Shown: one piece after another, positions 1,756 through 62,345 of the stretch
Layout: each line of letters begins with the position of its first letter
Position numbering within the stretch: position 1 is the stretch's first letter
DNA from: Brachynemurus nebulosus
Lineage: Eukaryota > Arthropoda > Insecta > Neuroptera > Myrmeleontidae
Reading direction: 5' to 3'
NCBI GenBank assembly: GCA_035578155.1
Contig: JAPWDM010000016.1
Coordinates: 8,855,044 to 8,919,043 of the forward strand
DNA: 64,000 nt
Notes under the pieces: generated by a model
Told to the model about the DNA's origin: nothing
Databases searched by the model: none
The model's input: the letters and a program-made list of their open reading frames with translations, nothing else
Position numbers and translations under genes: made by a program

Positions 1756-2151
1756 CAATTTTTTAGATAAATGGGAAGAATGCGTATTCTTACAATACAT
1801 AATTAAAGTAAATACACGCTATAGCGTGAACCTTGCTATAGTGTGAACCTTTAATCTCAAATTAAATTTTTTAAAACTTTTGATAATAGTTTTCAAACTT
1901 TTTTCTACTAATAACCGTTTTTATTTAAATTATACAATGTTTATAATACTTTTAATTTCAAATGTTATCGAGTGCCTGTGAAACATTATTAGTGTATGGT
2001 GGATTTTTATCCGTATTTAAACATACACCAATATTCATATGTTCACTTAATGTTCAGCTTTGGCTGATACTTGAACACTCGATGTACTTTGGCAAATGGC
2101 CAATTCATTATGTTAATTAAAATTGACATAGTGTTTGAAAAATTACCAAAC

Positions 2152-2223
2152 TGGATCGGCTGGGACTCGAACCCGGATCTCTTGGTTACCAGCCAAGCGC
2201 CTTACCAACTAGGCCACCGATCA
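2152..2223 (-). tRNA. tRNA-Thr(GGT)-like gene, copy 1
   Basis: Read on the minus strand, a 72-nt cloverleaf folds. The acceptor stem is TGATCGG/CCGATCC with a mismatched first pair. The D arm is GCCT..AGGC, the anticodon arm CTTGG-CTGGTAA-CCAAG gives anticodon GGT (threonine), and the T arm has loop TTCGAGT with one C-A mismatch. A box TGGCCTAGTTGG and B box GGTTCGAGTCC match Pol III consensus, and a T5 run follows about 13 nt downstream. GGT is an unusual threonine anticodon in eukaryotes. With the two stem mismatches, a tRNA-derived repeat is as likely as a working tRNA. Confidence 0.6.
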
Positions 2224-2499
2224 CTTGTTCGAGTGCCACTCCAATTCAGTAATCAATCAAACACAACCTCTCTCTAATGCGAGACGCAGTTTTATACTTT
2301 TAATTTCAAATGTTATCGAGTGCCTGTGAAACATTATTAGTGTATGGCGGATTTTTATCCGTATTTAAACATACACCAATATTCATATGTTCACTCAATG
2401 TCCAGCTTTGGATGATACTTGAACACTCGATGTACTTTGGCAAATGGCCAATTCATTATGTTAATTAAAATTGACATAGTGTTTGAAAAATTACCAAAC

Positions 2500-2542
2500 T
2501 GGATCGGCTAGGACTCGAACCCGGATCTCTTGGCTACCAGCC
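2500..2542 (-). pseudogene. Truncated tRNA-like copy 2 at the palindrome centre
   Basis: Only the 3' half of the tRNA-like sequence (T arm and part of the anticodon arm) is present. It breaks off in the anticodon arm, exactly where the unit orientation flips. It cannot fold as a tRNA. Confidence 0.7.
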
Positions 2543-2812
2543 TTGGTTTTCAAACACTATGTCAATTTTAATTAACATAATGAATTGGCCATTTGCCAAA
2601 GTACATCGAGTGTTCAAGTATCAGCCAAAGCTGAACATTAAGTGAACATATGAATATTGGTGTATGTTTAAATACGGATAAAAATCCGCCATACACTAAT
2701 AATGTTTCACAGGCACTCGATAACATTTGAAATTAAAAGTATAAAACTGCGTCTCGCATTAGAGAGAGGTTGTGTTTGATTGATTACTGAATTGGAGTGG
2801 CACTCGAACAAG

Positions 2813-2884
2813 TGATCGGTGGCCTAGTTGGTAAGGCGCTTGGCTGGTAACCAAGAGATCCGGGTTCGAGTCCCAGCCGATCCA
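2813..2884 (+). tRNA. tRNA-Thr(GGT)-like gene, copy 3
   Basis: Same 72-nt cloverleaf as copy 1, on the plus strand, with intact A and B boxes, anticodon GGT and a downstream T5 run at about 2895. It carries the same two weak points: acceptor pair 1-72 and one T-stem pair. It is the mirror image of copy 1 in the palindrome. Confidence 0.6.
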
Positions 2885-3160
2885 GTTTGGTAATTTTTCA
2901 AACACTATGTCAATTTTAATTAACATAATGAATTGGCCATTTGCCAAAGTACATCGAGTGTTCAAGTATCAGCCAAAGCTGAACATTAAGTGAACATATG
3001 AATATTGGTGTATGTTTAAATACGGATAAAAATCCGCCATACACTAATAATGTTTCACAGGCACTCGATAACATTTGAAATTAAAAGTATAAAACTGCGT
3101 CTCGCATTAGAGAGAGGTTGTGTTTGATTGATTACTGAATTGGAGTGGCACTCGAACAAG

Positions 3161-3232
3161 TGATCGGTGGCCTGGTTGGTAAGGCGCTTGGCTGGTAACC
3201 AAGAGATCCGGGTTCGAGTCCCAGCCGATCCA
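3161..3232 (+). tRNA. tRNA-Thr(GGT)-like gene, copy 4
   Basis: Same cloverleaf, 348 bp after copy 3. One D-loop change separates it from copy 3 (CCTGGTTGG instead of CCTAGTTGG), so the A box is slightly altered. A T5 run follows. It is equally a candidate tRNA or tRNA-derived repeat. Confidence 0.58.
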
Positions 3233-3490
3233 GTTTGGTAATTTTTCAAACACTATGTCAATTTTAATTAATGTTTATAATAACAAATATACATATGCAA
3301 CTATATGAATTTTATATCGAATTATAATATTCGAGTAATGTTTCGTACTTTAAATAAAGCAAATTATAACATAATTATTATTTTTTGCATATTAGACTGA
3401 AATTTTCGTTCGTAGTATTAGTAGGAATATATCTGTTAATGACGTCAGTAAAACATGCATACACACGATTTATTTAAGCAAGCTCACACC

Positions 3491-3499: not shown

Positions 3500-3569
3500 C
3501 AGTTTTATTTTAAAGAAAACATTAGTTACTGAATTCTAAGCCGAACAGTTTGACTCTAGACTTCACATA

Positions 3570-3960
3570 ATGAAGACCGACGCTGCGATTGTTGATTTCC
3601 AAGGCTTTATAAGCACAACAAATGGGGGAATTCTACATAAAGGAATTGGCTGTGTTGAAATTCGATTCTTTCGAAGAAAATTATGGTGAAGATTATATAC
3701 TACAACACTATGTATGCAAATCACCAATACCGTTTTGCGGATTAAGTGAAAAAAATCAGCACACAGCTCGTTGGTTGCGGAAAAATCATCATGGGTTCTC
3801 CTGGATGGATGGAAATATTGAATATGAGGAACTACAATATATTTTAATAAACAATCTTCACGGAACTCGAATCATCTATACGAAAGGTGACGAAAAAGTG
3901 CGGTATTTGAAACGACTACTACCATCATCTCCCATTATGTGTAATCTTTGTGTTAAATAA
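3570..3960 (+). pseudogene. Frameshifted relative of the 140-codon arm gene (RWL.KNHHG / YTKGDEK family)
   Basis: Two overlapping frames together make one member of the family found intact at 34357-34779 and 41730-42152. The first frame starts at ATG 3570 and carries the IVDFQGF motif that matches FLDIQGY in the intact copies. The second frame (3622-3960) carries YIKELAV, ARWLRKNHHGFSW and IIYTKGDEKVRYL. The frames meet in a run of five G at 3624-3628, where one extra G accounts for the break. Protein similarity to the arm copies is low away from these motifs, so this is a separate, older lineage rather than a copy of the 12-kb element. The conserved acidic residues (D in the first motif, E in KEL) suggest a nuclease-like fold, but that is inference. 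A TATA box and an ATG are kept. A programmed frameshift is possible but less likely than decay. Confidence 0.6.
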
Positions 3961-9634: not shown

Positions 9635-9775
9635 TGTGCCTATATACACCATTAACTAAAGTTGTAAAAAATATAACAAAAGATGACCCTTCATAAAATC
9701 ATTGATAATAGTGAATGCATTTTAACGGAGATTTTAAATAAAATGTAAGTACTTACGTAAGTACAAAAAGTATAA
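9635..9775 (+). repeat. Dispersed repeat also present in the outer arms of the 12-kb element
   Basis: GTTGTAAAAAATATAACAAA and the following GATGACCCTTCATAAAA block match 43326-43440 in the right outer arm and, inverted, about 32220-32335 in the left outer arm. This is a third, more diverged copy outside the element. Confidence 0.65.
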
Positions 9776-31842: not shown

Positions 31843-32440
31843 TAGTCATTGAGCGATATTCTAAAAGATGCTCATGCTCATGCTCATACTCATACTCATA
31901 CTCATACTCTACTTGCTCATACTTACTTTGCTTCATTTGCTTACAATAATTTTCGTATACCTTTTCCAACAATTTTTGGAATGACTTTTCGAGAGGGTGT
32001 TATTAGTGACTATAAACTTTCAAGATGTTAAATTATTTTATTGCTTACAACAAATACCACCCTATGTTCACTCCAATTGTATTTAAATTTGTTACCTGTT
32101 TCACAAGCAACGGTTTCTTTTTGCATTCATACAGATAAGTAGGTAACATGCTGCGAACAATACTGCTGATTATTGCCGTACTTGAAAAGTCATCTCATTT
32201 AAATATTGAAAAACTATACTTACGTACATAAATTATATACCTACATTTTTTCAAAGTCTGCGTTGAAATGTATTCACAATTATTGTCAATAGTTTTATGA
32301 AGGGTCATCTTTTGTTATATTTTTTACAGCTTGGACTAGTGAAGGTAGATATTTGTACAGATTAATTTCTTTTATTTAATAAAAACAGGTAAATTTTTAA
32401 GAAATTGTTCTAAATAGATATTTATGATAATTGTTATTTT
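31843..32440 (+). repeat. Left outer arm
   Basis: Inverted copy of 43218-43843. It begins with the (CTCATG/CTCATA)n hexamer tract (31870-31910), and its inner part contains the block shared with 9635-9775. Confidence 0.8.
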
Positions 32441-33299
32441 CTTATTTTTAATATGAATTTATATAAATATAAAATCCTTATATAAAGTCTATGTCAGACT
32501 AAACTTTTTTAGTTAGTTAGACTAAAGTTATATAATATTATGATAATAATTATTCATTCAATCATTTGTCGAAAGCTCTATCATTATGTGTGTGGAAATA
32601 TTTGGATAACTAGTAACTTTTCCTATAAATTAAAATATATCAAAGAATGGACAGATTTTTATTTTTTCTGTATTAATTATTTTGAGTTTAAGAAATATTA
32701 CCCTAATTTTTAAAGTTTTATTTTTGTAAAATATTGCATTAATTTGGACATCGAAATTTGTATGTTTGACTGTATTGCATATTTGTATGAAATTTTTCTA
32801 ATGCATAATCGTCGATTGTTAATTATCGAAAAATTTTCCAATGCTATATATGGAAAAGCTTGTTAATTTTAAATAAAACAAGGAACCGATAGGTTAACTG
32901 ATTGTTAAAATTTTATGTCACTGATGGGACTAAAATTATGTGCAAGCTTAGTTTTTAAAATTAAACATTTACAGATTGATGGTTTACATGATTTAGTAGC
33001 AAAACAGTAATTTTCATTATAATCAATAATTACCAATGCCTTATATTGCATAGAATGTAAAAATGTACAGTATGAGAAAACGGTTAGAAATTACTGTCCT
33101 CGACTCTTAGCGTCAAAAGTATCGCTTAGAGAAATTTTGAACATAGAGAATACTTGATTTTTGAAAAAATATTTACAATAATAATAAATATATCTTTGTC
33201 ATTAATTAAAAATATCATAAAGGGGTGGAAAAACCATATAAAAATTTAAATAGAAAATGTGTTTTTAAGTCTACCTGCCAAGTTCCAGGTATATTATCA
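32441..33299. other. Sequence unique to the left arm
   Basis: AT-rich with no ORF. It has no counterpart in the right arm, where about 210 bp of different sequence (43010-43217) sits instead. It is either a later insertion here or a deletion on the right. Confidence 0.55.
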
Positions 33300-34356
33300 T
33301 TCATCACTATATACATTTGACCCCAACACTCGCTTATACTGTTGGACTTTAAAGACATGAGTCATCACTTCGACATAATAAATTCAAGTTAACCCATTAT
33401 GCGTCATCACAATTTACTCATCACAATTTGGTTTTGTGTTAACCCATTACCCGCCATAGTTTTTGAATGCAAACCTAACGCATGCGCAGACTGAATTTTA
33501 GGCCACAATTTGATAGATGGGGTACACTATCGCGTCAAAATCTGGGGAATACCCTAACTCGGGGGTGGCCCACGGGGTGGCCCCAAACTTTTGACACCGT
33601 ACAGTACTTAAATTTTTGGTATACTACCGTGTTAAAAGTGCGGGCTCCCCCTGACCAAAAAGGTATCCGATCACTTTTTGAAGCGTACTGTGCTTATTAC
33701 GTGCAAATCTTGCCCTCACTTAATTGCGTCATCTTAAACGAAAATTGGGAGGCCGCTAAATTTTATGGGGGGCACTGTACCAAGCGCTAGTCGCAATCAC
33801 GACTTCAGACTCCAGACTCCAGAGTCCAGATTTCTGACCGCTACTGTACTGCCGGAAATCTGGGCGTCAACTGTACCTCAGGAGTACAATTTTTGTATAT
33901 GAGTCAGCACTTTATACGATTAATTTGTTTAAGTTCAGTTTGTTTATTTAAGATTTTTTAGCTAACTATTTATGATGATGTAATAGATACATATATTATA
34001 TTAATATATAATATCACATATAATATATAACGGGTGTATATTTAGTATTTTTAATAAATATTTTAGTATACAGGGTGTATCATGAAATATGTTTCTCAAT
34101 TAGAATAATAAATTTCATACGATTTTTGTTAATACCCTTATAGGTTAACGAAAGTAACTTCTTTCTGTCAAAAAATTGGGGAATTTAGGGTAATAATTAA
34201 ATAAAACGCACATAATTTTCTTTTTTTTAAATTTTATTTATAGAATATGTATACAAAAAATTAAATTGCTTAAATCTATATATTACTTAAAATCTATTTA
34301 TTTTCCATATAAAATTTTTTTAAAAGAATACAATTTTCTAATGAACAAATTTTATC

Positions 34357-34779
34357 TCAATGAAGCATACAGCGTCTTGAATAATATTCATCTCGCAGAA
34401 TGGAAATCTTCGGTACATCAAATATTTCTTCCAAATTCAGAATCCACGGCTGGTTTCCGGTACCATTAAACAAATTTGAAATCCATTTCTTCTTTTCACT
34501 GCCCTTGACGTAAATGACATCATACTTCTTTAATATAGGTTTCAATATGGTAGGAAGTTTTTGGTACAGAATAAATCCATACGACCAAGGTATCCCATGC
34601 CAATTTCGGCAAAGCCAACGGGCAACTCGTTGAAATTTCTTCGGCAACTCGTTGAAATCAAACGGTGCGTCGAATATAAGATGTAATATATCATCTGAAT
34701 TTTCTGCAGCAATACCAACTTCTTTAAAATAAAATTCGTTGTTAGCTCCTTGATAGCCTTGTATGTCAAGAAACGCCAT
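34357..34779 (-). CDS. Arm gene A, left copy: 140-aa family protein (possible nuclease-like fold)
   Basis: Intact frame with ATG at 34779, TATA box at 34825-34833 and AATAAA (34297-34302 on this strand) after the stop. Motifs in order: FLDIQGY (residues 3-9), FYFKEVGI (about 17-24), ARWLCRNWHGIPWSYG (about 53-68), VIYVKGSEKKKWISNLF (about 88-104), LNLEEIF near the C-terminus. I recognise the pattern D.QG-KE-RWL..N.HG..W-YVKG.EK..W as a family scattered in arthropod genomes near other small viral-like ORFs. Spacing of the acidic residues suggests an RNase H-like or DEDD exonuclease-like fold, which is inference. This copy keeps the family's N-x-HG motif. It is near-identical to 41730-42152 in the opposite arm. 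It probably acts in the nucleus on the element's DNA, though nothing in the sequence proves that. Confidence 0.7.
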   Translation of the reverse strand: MAFLDIQGYQGANNEFYFKEVGIAAENSDDILHLIFDAPFDFNELPKKFQRVARWLCRNWHGIPWSYGFILYQKLPTILKPILKKYDVIYVKGSEKKKWISNLFNGTGNQPWILNLEEIFDVPKISILRDEYYSRRCMLH

Positions 34780-34824
34780 TTTTTACCACCGCCGTAGAAC
34801 TGAAATTATTCACACAATCCACAA

Positions 34825-34833
34825 CTTTATATA
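34825..34833 (-). promoter_or_regulatory. TATA box of arm gene A (left)
   Basis: TATATAAAG on the minus strand, about 46 nt upstream of the ATG. The same motif occurs at the same position in the right arm. Confidence 0.65.
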
Positions 34834-34942
34834 GAATAATTAAAAGTGGTGGGGATAGTTAGTTAATTAGTGGAATGTATTCGAAAATGGCTACTGATAG
34901 CTATTGATAGTTTACAATCAAATTACAAACTGTTAATAATAT

Positions 34943-35119
34943 TTAGCACATTGGTGAGTACCAAGTTCTTTTCACTTTAAGACCTAGTGATTTAAGGAAT
35001 GCTAAATTTTCGGGTGAAATGTGTTGTTGCTTAAAAGTTTTACGTTTATTAATCTTAGGTTTCGAAAGTCCATTGCTAGGTTGTCTAGCGGTGAACTGCG
35101 CTGAATTGTAAATTAACAT
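34943..35119 (-). CDS. Arm gene B, left copy: 58-aa basic protein with a FLKSLGLKV motif
   Basis: The ATG at 35119 was chosen; the open frame upstream begins only with GTG. The protein is basic (KPKINKRKTFKQQ), then SPENLAFLKSLGLKV at about residues 38-52, ending WYSPMC. The motif S/TPEN..FL.SLG is one I recall from small ORFs beside arm-gene-A relatives in arthropods; function unknown. It is transcribed in the same direction as arm gene A, about 160 nt upstream of it. TATA-like TATAAAATAG lies at 35226-35235, about 107 nt upstream. The right copy has one more residue before its stop because the sequence after the Cys codon differs. Confidence 0.6.
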   Translation of the reverse strand: MLIYNSAQFTARQPSNGLSKPKINKRKTFKQQHISPENLAFLKSLGLKVKRTWYSPMC

Positions 35120-35225
35120 GGTTCCAAAATGTAGTTGTTTTACCACGAAAGTATAATTTTCGGCGAAAGAGATGTTAACTCTTTAACAACCACCGGTAAA
35201 TAGATAATATTTTGTGTAAGTTCAA

Positions 35226-35235
35226 CTATTTTATA
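35226..35235 (-). promoter_or_regulatory. TATA-like box of arm gene B (left)
   Basis: TATAAAATAG on the minus strand, identical in the right arm at 41320-41329. Confidence 0.45.
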
Positions 35236-35329
35236 CCCTTTAACCATGATAAGGTGTATGAGCTGGAGTATAACTCAGCAAATTATATAGCGGTGGTGAC
35301 GTAACACACAAATGCGGTAGTTGTGTTGC

Positions 35330-35575
35330 GGTTGTGGCAGTTGTGTGGTGGTGGCGGTGGCGTTGTTTGTGTGGCGGTTGTGATGGTTTTGTGGTGGTGA
35401 CGGTGGTTGTGTGGCGGTTGTGGTGTTTGTGTGGTGGTGGCGGTAGTATATGTGTGGCGGTTGTGGCGGTGGCGGTGTTTGTGTGGCGGTTGTGTGGTGG
35501 TGTTTGTGTGGCGGTGGCGGTGGTGTTTGTGTTGTGGTGGCGGAGGTTGTGTGGCGGTTGAGGCGGGGGCGGGGT
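35330..35575 (+). repeat. GGTGGC/GTTGTG-type G-rich minisatellite, left arm
   Basis: Irregular tandem words GTGGTGGTGGCGGT and TGTGTGGCGGTTGTGG. The other strand reads as a T/P/H-rich ORF (35240-35614) starting MIKLFTSAANTAAT and ending in a non-repetitive tail that includes NLLSYTPAHTPYHG. The right arm has an equivalent ORF start, but its tail is in another frame, so the ORF is not convincingly a gene. Confidence 0.8.
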
Positions 35576-35797
35576 AGCAGCGGTGTTTGCAGCTGAAGTG
35601 AACAATTTTATCATTAATTCAATCGAAGTAGCAATTTACTGTAGACAATGAATCGGTGGTGACATCTCGCGGTGTTTGTTGAACGCTATATCTAAATTAA
35701 TCAATCTGGTGACGTTCCTGTTCCCCTGCTCTTATAATGGAAGATTATTAAATATCGATTTTAGATAAAATATTGGAAAATTTCGGTCAAAAAATAC

Positions 35798-35806
35798 TAT
35801 AAATAG
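35798..35806 (+). promoter_or_regulatory. TATA box of the Cys-rich gene
   Basis: TATAAATAG. Its distance to the ATG at 35865 (about 65 nt) matches other genes of the element. The earlier ATG at 35832 would lie at the expected transcription start, so 35865 is the better start. Confidence 0.55.
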
Positions 35807-35864
35807 AACTGAATTATTAACCGGATGTCATATGTTGGTTAAGTTTCAGTGGATAAACAGCAAC

Positions 35865-36053
35865 ATGCCGATTTGTGGTATTTGTAAATTTCAACCGTCA
35901 CAGTGTAAGTGTGCCTTCTACGAGTATTATGATAGGTGTCGAAATGAAAAACGAATTTGCATGTGTTGTAAACGATGTATGATGCCATTTCCAAACTGTG
36001 TTTGCAATTATATAAACTGTACCACATGTAAAAGCCGCTGCAATTGCAAATAA
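35865..36053 (+). CDS. 62-aa cysteine-rich protein, copy 1
   Basis: The protein starts MPICGICKFQPSQCKC and contains 15 cysteines in 62 residues, arranged C-x2-C-x6-C-x-C, then RNEKRICMCCKRC, then PNCVCNY and a C-terminal TCKSRCNCK. There is no signal peptide, so an intracellular metal-binding role (zinc-ribbon-like or metallothionein-like) is more likely than a secreted disulfide protein. That is inference. I do not recognise the family. The frame is open upstream to ATG 35832, but TATA spacing favours 35865. It is the first gene of the core, just inside the left arm. A diverged second copy follows in tandem. Confidence 0.55.
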   Translation: MPICGICKFQPSQCKCAFYEYYDRCRNEKRICMCCKRCMMPFPNCVCNYINCTTCKSRCNCK

Positions 36054-36085
36054 TTTAGTAAAATCAATCATCTGAACATACTACG

Positions 36086-36199
36086 TATTGACCAATTCCA
36101 CGGTTGCTCAAACCAACGTAAGCATTTATTTATTACGCAATGACCAGCGATGTAATGAGGCATAATGCATATTTTGTGTAACAGTGGAATTGGTCAATA
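36086..36199. promoter_or_regulatory. Hairpin formed by perfect 16-nt inverted repeats after the Cys-rich gene
   Basis: TATTGACCAATTCCAC (36086-36101) and GTGGAATTGGTCAATA (36184-36199) are perfect inverse complements separated by about 82 nt. The second unit carries the same pair in altered form at 36548-36642. Role unknown: possible terminator, protein-binding pair, or ends of a tiny foldback. Confidence 0.6.
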
Positions 36200-36231
36200 T
36201 CGATTAAATATCGATTTTTTTTTATAAAATA

Positions 36232-36510
36232 TTGGATTATTTGGTTTTCAGTAAAAATACTATAAATACAACTGAATTATTAACCGAATATCATTTGTTG
36301 GTTAAGTTCCAGAAGGTAAAAAAAACAATTTGTGGTATTTGTAAATTTCAACCGCCAAAGTGCGGCTGTTCATTCCCCGGGTATTGTGATAGGTGTCGAA
36401 ACGAAAAACGAATTTGCATGTGTTGCAAACGGTGTATGATGCCATTTCCAAACTGTGTTTGCAATTATGTAAACAGTCCCACATGTAAAAGCCGCTGCAA
36501 TTGCAAATAA
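36232..36510 (+). pseudogene. Cysteine-rich protein, copy 2, without an ATG
   Basis: This is a tandem repeat of the Cys-rich unit, about 455 bp downstream. The region from TICGICKFQPPKCGC to the C-terminal TCKSRCNCK is conserved, again with 15 cysteines, although one Cys is gained (YYDRC to YCDRC) and one lost (NINC.. region now NSPTC). The position of the start Met in copy 1 is Thr here, and the earlier ATG is TTG, so no initiation codon remains upstream of the conserved part. A TATA-like CTATAAATAC is kept. It is either a dead copy or translated from a spliced or non-AUG start. Confidence 0.55.
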
Positions 36511-36547
36511 TTTAGTAAAATCAATCACCTGATTGCCACATCATAAG

Positions 36548-36642
36548 TATTGATCCATTCCACGGTTGCTAAAACAAACATTAGCATTTATTTAGTAATG
36601 AGGTATAACGTATATTTTGAGTAACAGTGGAATTGGCCAATA
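36548..36642. repeat. Decayed copy of the 16-nt inverted pair
   Basis: TATTGATCCATTCCAC and GTGGAATTGGCCAATA, with three mismatches between arms. Confidence 0.5.
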
Positions 36643-36817
36643 CCTGTTAATCAGTATTAAAATTTTTGTTGAATACTCAAATATGCATTATACTACATTG
36701 CATTGCCAGCCATATCATTATAAATAAATGTTAATGTTTATTTGATATTTTCCATTGGTTGTGGTTGCTTCAGAGTAACTTAATTTGTAGCTGTGTGGGA
36801 ATAAATATATCGGTGGG

Positions 36818-36892
36818 GTAAAATGAGCAACTCAAATTTTGTAGTTGTGTTGGGGTGGTGGTGGTGGCGGTGGTGGTGGTATTTGTGGTGGC
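36818..36892 (+). promoter_or_regulatory. Promoter module: GTAAAATGAGCAACTCA plus GGT/GGC tract
   Basis: The 17-nt motif at 36818-36834 is followed by (GGT)nGGC(GGT)n and then an AT-rich TATA-like stretch (CATAAAATATTTAA, 36897-36910), about 50 nt before the ATG at 36950. The identical motif and tract precede the zinc-finger gene at 40142. Confidence 0.6.
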
Positions 36893-36949
36893 AACTCATA
36901 AAATATTTAAGGGACGTGCTGAAACAGAAATTGGCAGTGTATTGGCAAA

Positions 36950-37262
36950 ATGTCTGAACAACACGGTGTTGAGTTAAGTATAAGTGATCTGTGGACCACT
37001 TTTACTGCCACTGATGAGACATTGGATCCGGTTTTGGAGAAGTTGAATAAACTTGGTGCTGTTAAACCATTCAAATCGCTATCTACGCTCAAACCGTATG
37101 AAACGTGGAAAATTCTTTTTCGTACGACGCATGGAAACTCGATATCGATTCGCGGATTTGGATGAGCAGACCATGCAATGTTTACGTACAGGACAATATT
37201 TTATTACATATAAAGGCACTGATTCTAGTGGTTTTTTACATATTGTGGAATTTAGTAAATAG
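36950..37262 (+). pseudogene. Small acidic-to-mixed ORF with a +1 frame break
   Basis: The first frame (36950-37165) starts MSEQHGVELSISDLW and includes VLEKLNKLGAVKPFKSL. The second frame (37053-37262), reading METRYRFADLDEQTM and then YFITYKGTDSSGFLHIVEF, looks like the natural continuation. The two meet near 37105-37125 in a T-rich stretch (ATTCTTTTTCG). The C-terminal pattern (TRY..., then Y.ITYKG) reminds me of a small ORF type that accompanies arm-gene-A relatives in arthropods, but I cannot name it. AATAAA follows near 37368. It is either a recent single-base lesion or programmed +1 frameshifting. Confidence 0.5.
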
Positions 37263-37400
37263 GTATCACATGTATGACGTTAGGTGTAAGATTAAGGAAA
37301 CTGTCAGATGTGAAAATGAATTGATTTACTTTTTTAATTTTAATATTGTAGACGTATATTTTTAAAAAAATAAATTATTTTACGTATAAATTCTTATATA

Positions 37401-39875
37401 GGGACCGAGCTTGACGACATTATTGCCATCTGGTGTCAGATTTAGCGATGCATTTCGGGTATGACATAGATATACATATCTATTCTTAGATTTTTGGATG
37501 TCTTGTCTATAATGTTATTAAATGTCAAATTAAATTTTGTTAATATTTAAAATGCACTTTCTGATAATTAAATTATCAATCAAATAATATTATTTGTAGA
37601 ATTAATATCAGCATGAATTTCGTAATAAGATATTGTTGTATTAAAAGTTGTTCCAATTTTCTTGGTAAAAGTAAGTATAAAAAACTTATAAACGTTTTGC
37701 TGATGTGATTGATATTGATGTTAGTTTTGCAAAACTGCGTACAAACAACTGCCCATAACGGAATCGAGAATTAAGTGCTTAACATGCTTAACATACTTAA
37801 TATAGCAGATAATATCCCAGTAATAATTAGTCATAATAGTAGATGTCATACAGAAGAATGTTTCGAAGAATGTGTCAATCCAAATTTAGTGTAATTTAAA
37901 CAACATAGATGGGATAAGATATACGGAAATGCAAGTTAATATTAACGTGAAGAAAACTTTAAATACAATCTGTGAGGCTAACATTAAAATCACCTCAAAA
38001 AATAAAATGAAAGATGGAAGTTATGATCCATTATGTTATTAATTCTGAAACGACGCTTTGTTCAGGTTTTTAAGGGCTAGAGGCCATAAAAAACGAAGAA
38101 AAATATAATAGTATAATGGGCGTTACAAGTGAGGTGTTTAAATCAAATGCCGCTCCCCACTATCAGCATTTCTTCACACGTTTGCTCTAAAATATGTTAT
38201 AAAAAGCGTTTCTTGAGAATAGGCATTTATTTAGACCCATACTCTTACTTTCTTAAGAACTTTTATTTTCTGTGATGCAACTCCGAATAGTCTGTTTTCC
38301 ATCAAGTTGCTTTCTATTGAAGAATTCAATCGCATTTGGGTCGTAGTATTACGGAGGTATTTACAAATCCTAAAGAATTTTTTGAAGGGAAATTGATTGT
38401 AGCCTTAAAGAGCATTCAGATTTACAATTAGTCTTTACTGTTCGTTTTTTTTTATTGAAAAAATACTTGCAGCCACTACAATTCTACCTCCCTAGGCTGT
38501 AACTCAGTCAGTCCATACGTAATATGCCCGTAGGTGTTACATGTAATGTGTAGGGTTGTTTTTTAAATGCTATTACAGAAAGTAAAAAGTTTCCAAAAAA
38601 ACAAGATTGTTCATTATACTCATAAAATTAAAAAAAAAAAAGATTGTATTATTCAGCTTTAACTGTATTACATATTCCAAATTCATCGTATTTTTATATG
38701 TATATAAAAAAAAAATATTTATAGTTACTATTTCAACGTTACGTATCTTGCCAGAAAAATTCATTGTGTGACCGTTAAAGGCAACTATAAAGACTTGTAG
38801 GCCTGAAATATTTAAACAAAACTTTCTGAACACATGTATAATCATAGACTGTACTGAAATGCACAAATGCAAAAAAAGGTATTAATGTGCTCAGAGTACA
38901 AAGATGAGTACACAATCAAATTTTTAGTTGGATGCTCACCAGAAGGGTTCATAAGTTCACAAGATCAAATTGTTATCGAGGTCATAATAGTGATTGTTTT
39001 ATAACAAATAAAATTGAAGAAATTTATAAAATTGTTTCAGTGTAAGGATACCATGTTGGAAGAAATATACAGAAAAAATTTTTTTCTTTTATTTAACGAT
39101 AACTGAATTTGTTTGAATTTTTTCCCTTTTATTATAGTTCTTTTAAAAGGAGTCATTCTGCCAATATTATTCGACAGAGTTAAGATTTAAAATTTCACTT
39201 TCAAATAATTATTTCTTTACATATTAAAAGAACAATAATAAAAAACTTCAAAATTATTGCTTTTATTTATTTTAACTATTAAAAAGAACCGTAAATAACT
39301 TTCAATTAACACTTCGGTACTAGATTGGGTTCATTTAAATTTTTTCATTTTATATTACTGTTTAATATAAATTTCATTTTATTTTTGGATTTTCTACCAC
39401 GCTTCCGTTAATACGACATTATCATATGTCACCAGATTTTCAGTTAATAATTCATTTACTCCAAGAATTAACTTTTTTTCAACAACGCCGCGCCGGATAG
39501 TATAGTATTTTCTAATTATTTATTTTTAAGTTTCGTATACATGTTTAAACAGATTTACTTATTTTCTATGCATAATTTTAAATTTTTAGCATCATTTTTT
39601 ATAGAAATATAACAAAAATTCCGTATTTTCCATTAGAGTTTATGTACGTGTAATTTGGTGATATATTGCTTTTTTCTCAACAAGAGTCCTCAGTTTCTTT
39701 TAATTTTTATTAACTGACAAGCAAAAAAAAAAAAAATTCAAATCAAGTAACACCATAGTAACACTCATTTTTATTTCCCCCATTTCTCATTCACCATTAA
39801 TATGTTTCATTTTTAGACATATAAAGGCGCCACTATCGGTGCCAGTGCTGCCGTCTATAGTTCAGGCTCGGTCCC
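37401..39875. mobile_element. TA-flanked Tc1/mariner-type element inserted in the core
   Basis: GGGACCGAGC at the left and GCTCGGTCCC at the right, both bordered by TA (37399-37400 and 39876-39877). The 2.5 kb interior is AT-rich with no transposase frame; the ORF at 38573-38872 is low complexity. It splits the gene-bearing core of the 12-kb element after insertion. Confidence 0.7.
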
Positions 39876-39877
39876 TA

Positions 39878-40141
39878 TTGTTCTTATTTTACAACACATT
39901 AGAACCTCCCAAATTATATCTTGAATTATGATAAGACTCTTAGTAGGTATGGGGCCAGTTGGCAACGCAATGTAATTGCCTATATTCAGGAGCAAGTATT
40001 TTAATGTTGGTTTTGAGTAGATATGTCGTCACCTGACACTTGCATATAGCTTTTCATTCATTTTTCTGAACTAATTTCCGAATCGAAAGAGCGTAATGGG
40101 GGCAAAATGTGTAAGCCGGATGTCAACCGCTACTTCATGGA
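39878..40141. other. Upstream region of the zinc-finger gene
   Basis: No ORF. It ends at the shared promoter motif at 40142. Confidence 0.5.
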
Positions 40142-40202
40142 GTAAAATGAGCAACTCAGATGTGGTGGTGGTGGTGGCGGTGGTGGTGGTGGAGTATATA
40201 AG
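40142..40202 (+). promoter_or_regulatory. Promoter module of the zinc-finger gene
   Basis: GTAAAATGAGCAACTCA (40142-40158) is followed by (GGT)nGGC(GGT)n and TATA box TATATAAG (40195-40202), 71 nt before the ATG. The motif is identical to that at 36818. Confidence 0.65.
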
Positions 40203-40265
40203 TAATCGCTAACACAATTCTGAATTAATCTTGTAAGACTAGTTGAGCTTTACACATCTATTATA

Positions 40266-40751
40266 ATGTTTGAGTGTACACAGTGCTATAAAAGCTTCTC
40301 GCGGAAAGATTCTCTTTCACGTCATATAAGAGATACACATATGCGGGAATTTTCACCAAAAAGGTTTGAAAATAGTTACTCTCTTGATCCGCTAAAAAGA
40401 CAAACATTAGACACGGCTGATGACTTATCTAGTTATGATACCGGGAGGAATGTTGATGATGAATTTCTAAACAATAAAGTTGAAGAAAGGTCCAATCCAC
40501 TTGAACAAAGAATTAAAGCTGCATCAAAAGCAATTCAAACTAAATTTAATAATTTAAGAAATCAAAATAATGTTTACACACCCAGCGATGAGACTTCAGA
40601 GATTGGTGAAAAAATACTCAATATTATTCGGAGTTTAGAGGAAAATAAAAACATGTTGTTTACCGTTGACGATAGTGAAGCTTTAATCGAAGAGTTAGAT
40701 GCTCCAAGAGAAACTACTGTCGGTCAAGAAATATCCTCTATACTTCGTTAA
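40266..40751 (+). CDS. C2H2 zinc-finger protein, 161 aa, with a possible acidic extension behind the stop
   Basis: An N-terminal classical finger, residues 4-25, has the form C-x2-C-x12-H-x4-H (FECTQCYKSFSRKDSLSRH). The rest is charged and probably helical (KRQTLDTADDLSSYD, KILNIIRSLEENKNML). The frame ends in TAA at 40749-40751 but continues open for exactly 28 more codons to a second TAA at 40836. That extension is strongly acidic and ends SDYDDD. The second stop coincides with the edge of the inverted arm. A single finger plus acidic tail fits a DNA-binding regulator of the element, which is inference. The promoter is the GTAAAATGAGC module with TATATAAG. The internal stop may be a recent nonsense mutation of a 190-aa protein or a readthrough site. 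Confidence 0.7.
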   Translation: MFECTQCYKSFSRKDSLSRHIRDTHMREFSPKRFENSYSLDPLKRQTLDTADDLSSYDTGRNVDDEFLNNKVEERSNPLEQRIKAASKAIQTKFNNLRNQNNVYTPSDETSEIGEKILNIIRSLEENKNMLFTVDDSEALIEELDAPRETTVGQEISSILR

Positions 40752-40939
40752 CTTCAAACGGCTGATGTTATTGAGCCACTAGGTGATTATCTGGATGAAA
40801 CTGATAAAGAAGATGCCAGCGATTATGATGATGATTAATTTAGATATTGCGTTCAACAAACACCGCGAGATGTCACCACCGATTCATTGTCTACAGTAAA
40901 TTGCTACTTCGATTGAATTAATGATAAAGTTGTTCACTA

Positions 40940-41245
40940 CAGTTGCAAACACCGCTGCTACCCCGCCACCGCCACAACCGTCACACAACCTCCGCCACCA
41001 CCACACAAACACCACCGCCACCGCCACACAAACACCACCAAACAACCGCCACAACCGCCACACATATACCACCGCCACCACCACACAAACACCACAACCG
41101 CCACACAACCACCGCCACCACCACACAAACACCACAACCGCCACACAACCACCGCCACCACCACAAAACCATCACAACCGCCACACAAACAACGCCACCG
41201 CCACCACCACACAACTGCCACAACCACAACACAACTACCGCATTT
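40940..41245 (-). repeat. GGTGGC-type minisatellite, right arm
   Basis: C-rich on the plus strand (CCACCGCCACCACCACAC words) and longer than the left-arm copy. The reading frames at 40921-41272 are low-complexity T/P/H strings; the MIKLFT start is kept, but the tail differs from the left arm. Confidence 0.8.
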
Positions 41246-41319
41246 GTGTGTTACGTCACCACCGCTAAATAATTTGCTGAGTTATACTCCAGCTCATACA
41301 CCTTATTATGGTTAAAGGG

Positions 41320-41329
41320 TATAAAATAG
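41320..41329 (+). promoter_or_regulatory. TATA-like box of arm gene B (right)
   Basis: TATAAAATAG, mirrored from the left arm, 107 nt before the ATG at 41436. Confidence 0.45.
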
Positions 41330-41435
41330 TTGAACTTACACAAAATATTATCTATTTACCGGTGGTTGTTAAAGAGTTAACATCTCTTTCGCCGAAAATT
41401 ATACTTTCGTGGTAAAACAATTACATTTTGGAACC

Positions 41436-41615
41436 ATGTTAATTTACAATTCAGCGCAGTTCACCGCTAGACAACCTAGCAATGGACTTTCGAAACCTAA
41501 GATTATTAAACGTAAAACTTTTAAGCAACAACACATTTCACCCGAAAATTTAGCATTCCTTAAATCACTAGGTCTTAAAGTGAAAAGATCTTGGTACTCA
41601 CCAATGTGCTATTAG
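41436..41615 (+). CDS. Arm gene B, right copy: 59-aa basic protein
   Basis: Identical to the left copy apart from KPKIIKRK for KPKINKRK, KRSWYS for KRTWYS, and an added Tyr before the stop. The ATG at 41436 was preferred to the upstream GTG. SPENLAFLKSLGLKV is retained. It lies 114 nt upstream of arm gene A on the same strand. Confidence 0.6.
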   Translation: MLIYNSAQFTARQPSNGLSKPKIIKRKTFKQQHISPENLAFLKSLGLKVKRSWYSPMCY

Positions 41616-41675
41616 TAGCCATTTTCGAATACATTCCACAAATTAACTAACTATCCCCACCGCTTTTAATTATCC

Positions 41676-41684
41676 TATATAAAG
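41676..41684 (+). promoter_or_regulatory. TATA box of arm gene A (right)
   Basis: TATATAAAG, 54 nt before the ATG at 41730. Confidence 0.65.
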
Positions 41685-41729
41685 TTGTGAATTGTGTGAA
41701 TAATTTCAGTTCTACGGCGGTGATAAAAA

Positions 41730-42152
41730 ATGGCGTTTCTTGACATACAAGGCTATCAAGGAGCTAAGAACGAATTTTATTTTAAAGAAGTTGGTATTGC
41801 TGCAGAAAATTCAGATGATATATTACATCTTATATTCGACGCACCGTTTGATTTCAACGAGTTGCCGAAGAAATTTCAACGAGTTGCCCGTTGGCTTTGC
41901 CGAAACTGGCTTGGGATACCTTGGTCGTATGGATTTATTCCGTACCAAAAATTTCATACCATATTGAAACCTATATTAAAGAAGTATGATGTCATTTACG
42001 TCAAGGGCAGTGAAAAGAAGAAATGGATTTCAAATTTGTTTGATGGTACCGGAAACCAGCCATGGATTCTGAATTTGGAAGAAATATTTGATGTACCGAA
42101 GATTTCCATTCTGCGAGATGAATATTATTCAAGACGCTGTATGCTTCATTGA
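41730..42152 (+). CDS. Arm gene A, right copy: 140-aa family protein
   Basis: Same length and frame as 34357-34779. The differences are few but include the conserved motif: NWHG in the left copy is NWLG here, FILYQKLPT is FIPYQKFHT, and FNGTG is FDGTG. The left copy keeps the residues shared with the distant relative at 3570-3960 (N.HG), so this right copy looks like the one beginning to lose constraint. The remaining motifs (FLDIQGY, FKEVGI, YVKGSEKKKW) are intact. AATAAA follows at 42207-42212. Other notes as for the left copy. Confidence 0.68.
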   Translation: MAFLDIQGYQGAKNEFYFKEVGIAAENSDDILHLIFDAPFDFNELPKKFQRVARWLCRNWLGIPWSYGFIPYQKFHTILKPILKKYDVIYVKGSEKKKWISNLFDGTGNQPWILNLEEIFDVPKISILRDEYYSRRCMLH

Positions 42153-43217
42153 CATAAAATTTGTTCATTAGAAAATTGCATTCTTTTAAGAAATTTTTAT
42201 ATGGAAAATAAATAGATTTTAAGTAATATTTAGATTTAAGCAATTTAATTTTTTGTATACATATTCTATAAATAAAATTTAAAAAAAAGAAAATTATGTG
42301 CGTTTTATTTAATTATTACCCTAAATTCCCCAATTTTTTGACAGGAAGAAGTTACTTTCGTTAACCTATAAGAGTATTAACAAAAATCTTATGAAATTTA
42401 TTATTCTAATTGAGAAACATATTTCATGATACACCCTGTATACTAAAATATTAGCTAAAAAGTAGCGGTCAGAAATCTGGACTCTGGAGTCTGGAGCCTG
42501 CAGTCGTGATTGCGACTAGCGCTTGGTACAGTGCCCCCCACAAAATTTAGCGGCCTCCCAATTTCCGTTTAGTATGACGCAATTAAATGAGGCCAAGATT
42601 TGCACGTAATAAGCACAATACGCTTCAAAAAGTGATCGGATACCTTTTTTGGTCAGGGGGCCCGCACTTTTGACACGGTAGTGTACCAAAAATTTAAGTA
42701 CAGTACGGTGTCAAAAGTTTGGGGCCACCCCCGAGTTAGGGTATTCGCCACATTTTGACGCGGTAGTGTACCCCATCTATCAAATTGTGGCCTAAAATTC
42801 AGTCTGCGCATGCGTCGTATACTAAAATTCAGTTTGCGCATGCGTTAGGTTTGCATTCAAAAACTATGGCGGGTAATGGGTTCACACAAAACCAAATTGT
42901 GATGAGTAAATTGTGATGACGCATAATGGGTTAACTTGAATTTATTATGTCGAAGTGATGACTTAAGTCAAGTCCAACAGTATGAGCGAGTGTTGGGGTC
43001 AAATGTCAACAACAAATTTTAAATACATGTACTCGGTACGTGCCGGGTCAAAGGTTAAGGTTTGCACATCAATACATTTTGATGACTCATCAGTTCAAAT
43101 GTGTAGTACCGTAAATGGGTGCAATAGGACCGTAAGTCACACGCTTTCAAACATCGTCAAAGGGGTTCAAGTTACTCCGTTTTGCGGTGGCCCAGAACCC
43201 GTACAGCTATTCTACTA

Positions 43218-43843
43218 ATAACAATTATCATACATATCTATTTAGAACAATTTCTTAAAAATTTACCTGTTTTTATTAAATAAAAGAAATTAATCTGTAC
43301 AAATATCTACCTTCACTAGTCCAAGTTGTAAAAAATATAACAAAAGATGACCCTTCATAAAACTATTGACAATAATTGTGAATACATTTCAACGCAGACT
43401 TTGAAAAAATGTAGGTATATAATTTATGTACGTAAGTATAGTTTTTCAATATTTAAATGAGATGACTTTTCAAGTACGGCAATAATCAGCAGTATTGTTC
43501 GCAGCATGTTACCTACTTATCTGTATGAATGCAAAAAGAAACCGTTGCTTGTGAAACAGGTAACAAATTTAAATACAATTGGAGTGAATATAGGGTGGTA
43601 TTTGTTGTAAGCAATAAAATAATTTAACATCTTGAAAGTTTATAGTCACTAATAACACCCTCTCGAAAAGTCATCCCAAAAATTGTTGGAAAAGGTATAC
43701 GAAAATTATTGTAAGCAAATGAAGCAAAGTAAGTATGAGTAAGTAGAGTATGAGTATGAGTATGAGTATGAGCATGAGCATGAGCATGAGCATGAGCATG
43801 AGCATGAGTATGAGCATCCTTTAGAATATTGCTCATTGAATTA
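43218..43843 (-). repeat. Right outer arm
   Basis: Inverted copy of 31843-32440, with a longer (GAGCAT/GAGTAT)n tract (43745-43815). Confidence 0.8.
43624..43836 (-). CDS. Doubtful 70-aa ORF at the element end (His-dipeptide repeat)
   Basis: It has an ATG at 43836 and reads inward through the hexamer tract as (AH/TH)n, then a unique tail including FRIPFPTIFGMTFREG. The left-arm equivalent is open over the same stretch, but its start codon is TTG. Since the arms are near-identical, conservation of the frame adds little. A short AATAAAAAT lies about 40 nt upstream. More likely non-coding. Confidence 0.2.
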   Translation of the reverse strand: MSNILKDAHTHAHAHAHAHAHAHTHTHTHTLLTHTYFASFAYNNFRIPFPTIFGMTFREGVISDYKLSRC

Positions 43844-45949: not shown

Positions 45950-46345
45950 CGGTATGGGTTCTGTCGCACACTACCGCGTGAAAAGTATGGGGACACTCTG
46001 ACCCAGGAATGTGCCCACACTTTTGACGCCGTACTGTACTTAATGTTGTGGTACACTGCCGTGTTAAACATGTGCCCCCCACTGGGTTAAGGTGTCCGAT
46101 CACTTTTTGAAGCGTACTGTACTTATTTTGTGGAAGTACAAACCTTGATATTTGACTCCAACACGCGCTCGCTTAAATAAGTACAGTACGCTTCAAAAAG
46201 TGATCGAACACTCTCACCCAGGGGGGCACACTTTTGACACGGCAGTGTACCACAACATTAAGTACAGTGCGGCGTCAAAAGTGGGGCACCCCCCCCCCCC
46301 CTGGGTGAGAGTGTTCGATCACTTTTTGAAGCGTACTGTACTTAT
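45950..46345. repeat. Repeats of a unit shared with the inner arms
   Basis: Words such as GTACAGTACGCTTCAAAAAG, TGATCG.ACAC and TTTTGACACGGCAGTGTACC occur several times in both orientations. The same words lie in the arms at about 33500-33690 and 42590-42790. The ORFs at 33482, 42653, 45918 and 46152 are readings of this unit. Confidence 0.7.
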
Positions 46346-47666: not shown

Positions 47667-47951
47667 GGGTGGTGGAGAGACAAGACGCTACCACCCCGAA
47701 CCACTATCATGACTGACTGCTGGAGTGGTTATAATACAGCTCTTTTACAGCGATTCCGTCATTTGATTGTCAACCACCGCCAAAATTTCGCGAGTCCTGG
47801 CAATCGAAATATTCATACCCAAAATGATGAGTCAAACTGGGCAAGAATTAAATTGGATATGAGACGGGAAATTGGCAGGATGTCAACCACAAGAATTGAA
47901 AATCATCTGATTGAATATATATGGAGAAGTCTCCACAACACAAGCGAGTAG
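47667..47951 (+). pseudogene. ISXO2-like (Merlin-type) transposase fragment
   Basis: The frame contains TTIMTDCWSGYNTALL, HLIVNHRQNF, HTQNDESNWARIK and IEYIWRSLHNTS. These match the conserved C-terminal half of ISXO2/IS1016-type DDE transposases, as found in Merlin elements: the second catalytic D in TD.W..Y, then N-x3-E-S-x-W with the catalytic E. The frame is open only from 47667, so the N-terminal half with the first catalytic Asp is missing. No TIRs were recognised. A dead fragment that ends at a natural-looking stop (TAG at 47949). Confidence 0.75.
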
Positions 47952-57989: not shown

Positions 57990-58376
57990 GCGGTATCTTA
58001 TAGAAATTTTTAATATTCATTTTTAACATTGCATGCAATAATATTGCGTTTTTCTATTTGAGTTTATGATTAAGTATTATAATCCTGCTATTTAGTATTT
58101 ATAAGTTTATTGACTTTACAAACTTTTAATATTTATTTTTAACATTACAAGCAGTTATATTGAGCTTTCTAATTGAGTTTATAATTAAGTAGTAAAATCC
58201 TGCGATTTAGTAATTACAAGATTACTGATTTTATAGAGATTTCTAATATTCATTTTAACATTGTATGCAGTACTATAGCGTTTTCTATTTGAGTTTATGA
58301 TTAAGTATTATAATCCTGCTATTTAGTATTTATAAGTTTATTGACTTTACAAACTTTTAATATTCATTTTAGCGAA
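57990..58376 (+). repeat. About 115-bp tandem array, left block
   Basis: Units contain ATTTGAGTTTAT.ATTAAGTA, ATCCTGC.ATTTAGTA and AACTTTTAATATTCATTTT. The array stops at 58376 and resumes at 61249. Confidence 0.8.
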
Positions 58377-61006: not shown

Positions 61007-61248
61007 TTTACTAAGTGTCCGCACGATAACTCAAGAACGAAACATCTTATTTTTAAGAAATTTTGTGAAAACGTCTACGGTTTTTTGGGCATTTTTTTTG
61101 AAAAAATTTGGCGGAATGAGGCGGGAAAATCACATAAAGAAAGTTTTTTTTTATTTACAATTACTCTATATCAACTAGTTTCCGAGAAAAACGTACTTTT
61201 GTAAATGAAAATTCGCTATGTTATGCAGGATGCTGCGACAGGGGTATT
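60736..61248. mobile_element. Complete (TA)n-centred foldback element, family 1
   Basis: The left end AATACCCCTGTCGCAGCATC and right end GATGCTGCGACAGGGGTATT are perfect inverse complements, and about 220 bp on each side are inverted. The centre is (TA)n preceded by CACACACACG. Its right edge abuts the resumed tandem array. ORFs at 60685-61204 are readings of the arms. Confidence 0.85.
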
Positions 61249-62345
61249 TAACATTACAAGCAGTTATATTGAGCTTTCTATTTGAGTTTATAATTAAGTA
61301 GTACAATTCTGCTATTTAGTAATTACAAGTTTACTGATTTTATAGAATTTTTTTTAATATTCATTTTTAACATTGTGTGCAATAATATTGCGTTTTTCTT
61401 TCTATTTGAGTTTATGATTACTTATTATGATTCTGCTATTTAGTATTTGTCAGTTTATTGACTTTACAAACTTTTAATATTCATTTTTAACATTACAAGC
61501 AATTATATTGAGCATTCAATTTGAGTTTATAATTAAGTAGTACAATCCTGCGATTTAGTAATTACTAGATTATTGACTTTATAAATTTTTAATATTAATT
61601 TTTAACATTGTATGCAATCATATTGCGTTTTTATTTGAGTTTATGGTTAATTATTATAATCCTGCTATTTAGTATTACAAGTTTCTTGACTTTACAATTT
61701 TTTTTATGTTCATTTTAGCATTACAAACAGTTATATTGAGTTTTCTATTTGAGTTTGTAATTAAGTAGTAAAATCCTGCGATTAAGTATTTACAAAATTA
61801 TGGACTTTATAAATTTTTACTATTCATTTTTAACATTATAAGCAGTTATATTACGTTTTACTATTTAAAGTTATAAGTAATTATTATAATCCTGCTATTT
61901 AGTATTCACAAGTTTATTGTCTTTACAAATTTTTAATGTTCATTTTCAACATTGTAAACAGTTAGAACGAGTTTTCTATTTGAGTTTATGATTAATTAAT
62001 TATTAAAATCCTGCGATTTTATTAGTATATACAAGTTTGTTGACGTTATAAATTTTAATATTCCGATTCAACATTGCAAGCCGTTATATTGAGTTTCTAT
62101 TTGAGTTTATAATTAATTATTAAAATCGTGCTATTTAGTATTTATCGGTTTATTGACTTCATATATTTTTTAATATTGATTTTTTTTAACATGGTAAACA
62201 GTTTTATTGAGTTTCGACACTTCGATTTGAGTTTATAATTATAATCCTGCGATTTAGTAATTACAAGTTTATGGATTTTATAAATTTTTAGTATTCTATT
62301 TTTAATAATTTTTAACAGTGTACGCAGTTATTTATTTTATTGAAT
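61249..62345 (+). repeat. About 115-bp tandem array, right block
   Basis: Nine or so further units of the array seen at 57990-58376, with small indels and the same TTTGAGTTTAT core. Confidence 0.8.

Follow-up and report, generated by a model that had tools for sequence, protein, structure and literature searches.

Polintons, also called Mavericks, are defined by a type B DNA polymerase (PolB), a retroviral-type integrase and inverted terminal repeats, and 5-6 bp duplications sometimes flank them, according to the available text of PMC12220804. Adintoviruses are among the closest described counterparts. The genome of Drosophila-associated adintovirus 2 is near-complete at 13,277 bp, and that of adintovirus 1 encodes an almost identical protein complement, with PolB, integrase, capsid, protease and FtsK, as described in the available part of PMC8363768. 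Zinc-finger regulator genes occur in some adintoviruses, as far as the portion of PMC11071296 at hand describes them. Long inverted arms are also known from Galileo, whose longest arms belong to non-autonomous copies (PMC3573991, in part). Here we describe an element at positions 31846-43839 of a window of 64,000 nucleotides, which is the whole stretch analysed, from the antlion Brachynemurus nebulosus (contig JAPWDM010000016.1). All coordinates below refer to this window.

The element has long inverted arms, tandem repeats at its termini, a candidate target duplication, a set of small genes, a TATA/initiator promoter before the arm gene that we call gene A, a C2H2 zinc-finger open reading frame (ORF), and in gene A a member of a family with structural relatives in an adintovirus and in ichnoviruses. 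We favour the explanation that it is an integrated, non-autonomous and decaying descendant of an insect Polinton/Maverick-type (adintovirus-type) linear DNA virus, and we give this about an even chance of being correct. The element probably works like an adintovirus-type virus and probably descends from one. Among the defining features of Polintons, only the long terminal inverted repeats were found outright, and because neither a polymerase nor an integrase was found, we do not file the element as a Polinton. It resembles Polintons and adintoviruses in its inverted terminal repeats, its possible short target duplication, a structural relative of gene A, and its zinc-finger gene. It differs from them in that the frames scanned revealed no gene for a polymerase, integrase, protease, packaging ATPase or capsid, in that its arms of 3.0-3.8 kb carry genes, and in its size: about 9.5 kb once a probable nested insert is set aside, against 13-15 kb for three Drosophila-associated adintoviruses in the accessible portion of PMC8363768.

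Inverted arms and termini

A first-pass annotation, made from the letters of the window, had proposed a 12-kb inverted-arm element with small TATA-driven genes. Self-alignment fixed the arm borders and bore out the inverted-arm structure. Its outline is as follows.

31846-43839: whole element including the candidate target duplication, 11,994 bp, from the arm alignment and the direct repeat at the edges
31853-35703, + strand: left inverted arm, a mosaic; 32439-33312 (874 bp) and 33846-34047 (202 bp) are absent from the right arm
40832-43832, - strand: right inverted arm; 210 bp at 43007-43216 are absent from the left arm
31846-31852, + strand: TCATTGA, left copy, candidate 7-bp target duplication
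43833-43839, + strand: TCATTGA, right copy, candidate 7-bp target duplication
35240-35614, - strand: tandem tract of the left arm, G/T-rich on the + strand; its open frame is probably no gene
40921-41268, + strand: C/A-rich tandem tract of the right arm, counterpart of the G/T-rich tract

The arms, about 3.8 kb on the left and 3.0 kb on the right, flank a single-copy core and align in three blocks. An outer block of 571 bp (31868-32438 against 43217-43787) is 99.1% identical. A repeat-bearing block (33313-33845 against 42461-43006) is 88% identical and a gene-bearing block (34048-35703 against 40832-42461) 93% identical, gaps included in both. Mismatches make up 0.88% of the outer block, 2.72% of 34072-35703 and 4.66% of the repeat-bearing block. 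Just inside the outer block, 874 bp in the left arm face an unrelated 210 bp in the right arm, so that the arms are mosaic, and the 202 bp found in the left arm only lie between the repeat-bearing and gene-bearing blocks. With 0.9-5% divergence and such large indels, the arms are unlikely to be one copy assembled twice; an assembly artefact is disfavoured by this divergence, by the 874/210-bp replacement and by the further indels.

At their outer start the arms carry 6-bp tandem repeats. Beyond the 571-bp block, a reading of the flanks showed about 21 bp more that pair in inverted orientation, with two mismatches, out to TCATTGA; this 7-mer forms a direct repeat at the two outer edges of the element. 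Random junction pairs shared a 7-mer in 155 of 200,000 trials, three offsets being allowed. TCATTGA is almost a palindrome, which makes the target duplication ambiguous. Three readings fit the edges: a 7-bp duplication, a 5-bp one (CATTG) with AGC...GCT termini, or the tip of the inverted repeat.

Two repeats of the arms recur in the window. A GC-richer repeat lies in both arms (33522-33845 and 42461-42771) and also at 45968-46341, 2 kb outside the right arm, where it is present twice, in inverted orientation, with 74-79% identity to the arm repeats. Positions 9659-9751 match 32238-32332 of the outer arm block at 85%, so the arm end is partly repeated elsewhere in the window.

The arm genes

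Each arm carries the same two small genes.

34357-34779, - strand: gene A, left copy, 140 amino acids (aa), similar to the Maelstrom (MAEL) domain and C-terminally truncated relative to its relatives
41730-42152, + strand: gene A, right copy, 140 aa, with the stop of the left copy
34943-35119, - strand: gene B, left copy, 58 aa
41436-41615, + strand: gene B, right copy, 59 aa

The reading frames of both genes are open in both arms, as had been proposed, but to call them intact goes too far. The two gene A copies end at an identical stop, which precedes the conserved C-terminal part of full-length relatives and after which 20 further codons are open in frame. The right copy also has L at the H position of a motif, HGIPW, where most relatives have H. 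The proposed TATA-driven layout holds for gene A: in both arms TATATAA is followed 30 bp on by TCAGTT and then by the ATG, and TATATAA with TCAGTT at this distance is a normal arthropod promoter arrangement. Between the arms, the copies of A and B differ by 10 base changes, 8 of which alter the amino acid, so the copies bear no mark of purifying selection from the time after the arms were last alike. The present gene copies in the element look non-functional or nearly so. For gene B there was no Pfam match above the cut-off and no confirmed relative in a scan of IMG/VR.

Relatives of gene A

When the right-arm copy of gene A was searched by itself against proteins, nothing matched. The window itself holds a diverged relative at about 3566-3960, outside the element and without arms, which is 36% identical to the left copy; it looks frame-shifted, with its start in another frame than the remainder and an early end. 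The family is thus also present in this genome outside such an element. A profile that included this relative (3622-3957) matched two proteins, and a second round matched seven at E <=0.1: P0001 and P0006 from contigs, P0007 from ENA, two proteins of Microplitis demolitor, and two hypothetical proteins of Cotesia glomerata. The Microplitis relatives are named 'putative Bracovirus particle protein MdBV-1-9' and 'putative Bracovirus protein MdBV-1-10' at NCBI. The two Cotesia proteins (P0003 and P0004) apparently have two MAEL-like domains each, and may come from neighbouring genes, to judge by the names KQX54_007805 and KQX54_007811. The Pfam copy searched contains no model specific to the family. 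IMG/VR, where few insect sequences are expected, yielded no confirmed relative for gene A or family members or for the zinc-finger protein, and GTDB genomes and phages yielded no relative, an absence that says little since few insect sequences are expected there too.

A structure model of the element's own gene A protein, built on a 3-sequence alignment, was poor (predicted local distance difference test score, pLDDT, 46.7). That of its relative P0006, built on an 8-sequence alignment, reached pLDDT 72.8 with a predicted template modelling score (pTM) of 0.72; the comparisons below are for this model. Against predicted viral structures it gave seven matches at E <=1e-3, two of them without a name. 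The named ones were GfV-D6-ORF1 (3.9e-9) and GfV-B38-ORF1 (1.6e-5) of Ichnoviriform fumiferanae, AsIV-cont00151 (8.5e-9) and AsIV-cont00163 (6.6e-5) of Apophua simplicipes, and an uncharacterized protein of Drosophila-associated adintovirus 2 (2.4e-8, TM 0.71). The ichnovirus ORFs and MdBV-1-9 and MdBV-1-10 thus fall in the same protein family as gene A. They differ from our case in that they belong to wasp-associated virus systems, and no other polydnavirus-type gene was recognised in the element. The first-pass annotation had likened gene A to arthropod virus-like loci. This is now supported by structure, through the adintovirus protein and the four ichnovirus ORFs, and by sequence, through the two bracovirus-named relatives; moreover, the hint has become specific, as gene A looks like a Maelstrom-type (MAEL) domain.

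Probable kinship of gene A with Maelstrom

The modelled fold of the gene A family is DnaQ/RNase H-like. When the P0006 model was compared with VIA-align, DinG (Z 11.3, 145 residues aligned), Maelstrom (10.6, 153) and polymerase III epsilon (10.5, 136) were tied. Against solved structures the model had no Foldseek match better than 1e-3, and sequence searches of solved structures with gene A, P0006 and family profiles returned no Maelstrom and no convincing match.

In the Bombyx Maelstrom, the residues of interest are D122, N124, E137, C290, H293, C302 and R306; ECHC residues bind a structural zinc, and the catalytic DEDD set is lost beyond the first Asp, as given in the accessible text of PMC4408791. 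The gene A family shares with the MAEL domain (PF13017) its modelled RNase H-like fold, the Asp of strand 1, a Glu 15 residues on, and the motif C-x2-H-x6-8-C. The spacing from the strand-1 Asp to the Glu of KEL/KEV is 15 in eight of nine proteins that have both, and 14 in P0002. All six relatives that reach the C terminus have C-x2-H-x6-8-C (P0007 is a fragment without the motif), and the fly and silkworm Maelstroms have C-x2-H-x8-C; in shuffled versions of four family members the motif arose in 211 of 20,000. The element's own gene A frames stop ahead of the last Cys of the motif, and ECHC is incomplete there. As in Maelstrom, DEDD beyond the first Asp shows no conservation in the family alignments; an active 3'-5' exonuclease is disfavoured for the same loss. 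A difference is that gene A has no HMG box.

Several results weigh against kinship with Maelstrom. The DnaQ-type enzymes tie with Maelstrom in the structure scores. Among the family members scanned, none exceeds a Pfam cut-off, and only P0004 from Cotesia touches Maelstrom (PF13017), with E 0.014 and 15.5 bits against a cut-off of 22. When the family was aligned by hhalign to one fly Maelstrom, the score (11.8) stayed below the best of 100 shuffles (18.4). The score was 15.5 with fly and silkworm together, a pair run without a shuffle control. With fly, silkworm and human Maelstrom it rose to 20.3, a score that none of 150 shuffles reached (best 17.7), but the probability was 1.7%; this alignment covered the C..H..C stretch only, and the global mode gave nothing useful. 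Since the sequence statistics are weak, the assignment rests on the fold and the motif spacing. The ECHC motif alone names no function, because arenavirus exonucleases combine the same fold with an ECHC site (PMC7968707, in the part available). On balance, gene A is likely, though not proven, to be kin to MAEL, as judged from the modelled fold and the motif spacing.

The core of the element

The core was expected to carry a Cys-rich pair, a small frameshifted ORF and a zinc-finger gene. All of these are there, in the following state.

35832-36053, + strand: Cys-rich ORF, 73 aa
36295-36510, + strand: second Cys-rich copy, 75% identical, with no ATG before the Cys-rich part
36950-37262, + strand: core ORF spread over two frames that overlap, 36950-37165 and 37098-37262
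37401-39875: probable nested TA-flanked transposon, whose inverted ends match at 13 of 14 bases (no chance control)
40266-40838, + strand: C2H2 zinc-finger ORF, zf-C2H2 E 1.2e-5 (Pfam), with a stop at 40749-40751

The set is therefore as described, except that the second Cys-rich copy has no ATG and the zinc-finger frame contains a stop, after which it stays open for 28 codons and closes with an acidic tail at 40838, where the right arm has its inner edge. We read the two overlapping core ORFs, which lie in different frames, as one frame-shifted gene. The core is single-copy as claimed, but much of it (37401-39875) is probably a nested transposon, as the inverted ends and the TA on both sides are as left by a TA-targeting transposon. 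A module of TAAAATGAGCAACTCA and a G-rich tract lies at 36825 and 40149, before the core ORF and the zinc-finger gene respectively, which suggests shared control.

The Pfam scan covered 16 of the 33 frames of at least 70 codons that overlap the element; those left out include CA/GT-array and antisense frames, and decayed PolB remains in stop-rich frames might escape a scan of this kind. Within that scope the element gave no hit to polymerase, integrase, transposase or capsid families, in agreement with the first-pass annotation, and the Cys-rich and core ORFs had no match above the cut-off. Apart from the zinc finger, the scan returned a few very weak matches to unrelated families, all below the cut-offs.

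Origin of the element

How could a virus of the adintovirus type have given rise to this arrangement? The ancestor would have lost its polymerase, integrase and capsid genes and kept accessory genes. A terminal stretch that takes in genes B and A and reaches as far as the zinc-finger gene's end would have been duplicated in inverted orientation at the opposite terminus; this can occur if a linear genome with inverted ends uses one of them to repair or prime the other. Such an element would have relied on the replication and integration proteins of a full-length relative. The first-pass suggestion of a virus-like, non-autonomous element whose arms hold duplicated accessory genes fits the evidence; what it did not anticipate is that the genes are in part broken and that the arm copies of A and B bear no trace of selection.

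A number of observations weigh against an adintovirus-type origin. The link to Polintons comes mainly from gene A, an accessory gene that could have moved between unrelated viruses, and the adintovirus match is structural, obtained via the model of P0006 and not of the element's own protein. Furthermore, PolB, integrase, packaging ATPase and capsid genes were not found in the frames scanned, no IMG/VR locus matched gene A or its family members, gene A has a relative outside the element at 3566-3960, and the target duplication is ambiguous.

Of the other explanations, the one that survives best is a local inverted duplication of host DNA that held old viral-derived genes, with no mobile element involved; we consider it unlikely. 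Late copying of worn DNA would give both arms the same gene A stop and the same inserted repeat, as is seen, but homogenisation of the arms by replication or gene conversion explains these shared features as well. The tip of the duplication is ambiguous and a gene A relative stands elsewhere in the window without arms, both as a local duplication would allow. Against this, the homology ends on both sides at the same direct 7-mer, beside tandem-repeat termini, and a shared 7-mer was rare among the random junction pairs.

The element might instead represent an undescribed class of insect virus or transposon, with its own replication strategy and with accessory genes exchanged with adintoviruses and polydnaviruses, which we regard as rather improbable. 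The scanned frames hold no Polinton hallmark gene, and gene B and the Cys-rich and core ORFs match no Pfam family above the cut-off. Gene A, tied to ichnovirus ORFs and bracovirus-named proteins as well, is not the property of one virus group. On the other hand, nothing found points positively to another replication system, and the arms, the possible 5-bp duplication, the zinc-finger gene and gene A are all in keeping with a relic of a Polinton.

Least convincing, and very improbable in our view, is a Foldback/Galileo-like (P-superfamily) transposon with long arms and captured viral genes: the available text of PMC3573991 gives Galileo long, variable and internally repetitive arms, enlarged by internal sequence in non-autonomous copies, and 7-bp target duplications such as the 7-bp direct repeat at our element's edges might be, but it describes a P-type element with shorter arms (up to about 1.25 kb, against 3.0-3.8 kb with virus-type genes here) and no virus-type genes, and no transposase was found in the frames scanned, which a non-autonomous copy would be without too.

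A possible role for gene A

For the favoured descent from an adintovirus-type virus, the modelled fold suggests what gene A may have contributed. Its product would probably be an RNA-binding protein of the MAEL type, stabilised by zinc and devoid of catalytic activity. As a guess from fold and motif, this protein is likely to have bound RNA or mimicked the host Maelstrom, blunting or redirecting small-RNA silencing. Extended to the whole family, the proposal would be that insect Polinton-type viruses and their derivatives carry Maelstrom-domain proteins of their own, which bind RNA and interfere with or hijack silencing by PIWI-interacting RNAs (piRNAs), and that the gene was passed to wasp-associated viruses. 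We hold this wider proposal to be speculative and unlikely to be right as a whole.

Maelstrom is a conserved host factor that silences mobile DNA in animal germ lines. If the proposal were true, a Maelstrom-related domain encoded by mobile DNA itself would be a concrete candidate for counter-silencing or mimicry, and the domain would be common to bracovirus-named wasp proteins, ichnoviruses and an adintovirus. A set of unnamed wasp-virus proteins would also gain a suggested fold and function, and the arms with their genes would illustrate how terminal repeats grow in a Polinton-like relic. In the titles and abstract openings searched, with subscription papers mostly outside the search, we found no report of a MAEL protein encoded by a virus or transposon, which leaves its unpublished status unproven; a search of the same collection found no paper containing both Maelstrom and adintovirus.

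Other features of the window

Outside the element, three tRNA-Thr (ggt) genes lie at 1946-3271 within 348-bp repeats, both inverted and in tandem. A fragment at 47667-47948 resembles an ISXO2/IS1595-type transposase (PF12762, E 7.9e-6), with 26.4 bits against a cut-off of 27. Finally, related tandem repeats with units of about 115 bp form two arrays, at 58004-58370 and 61247-62305.

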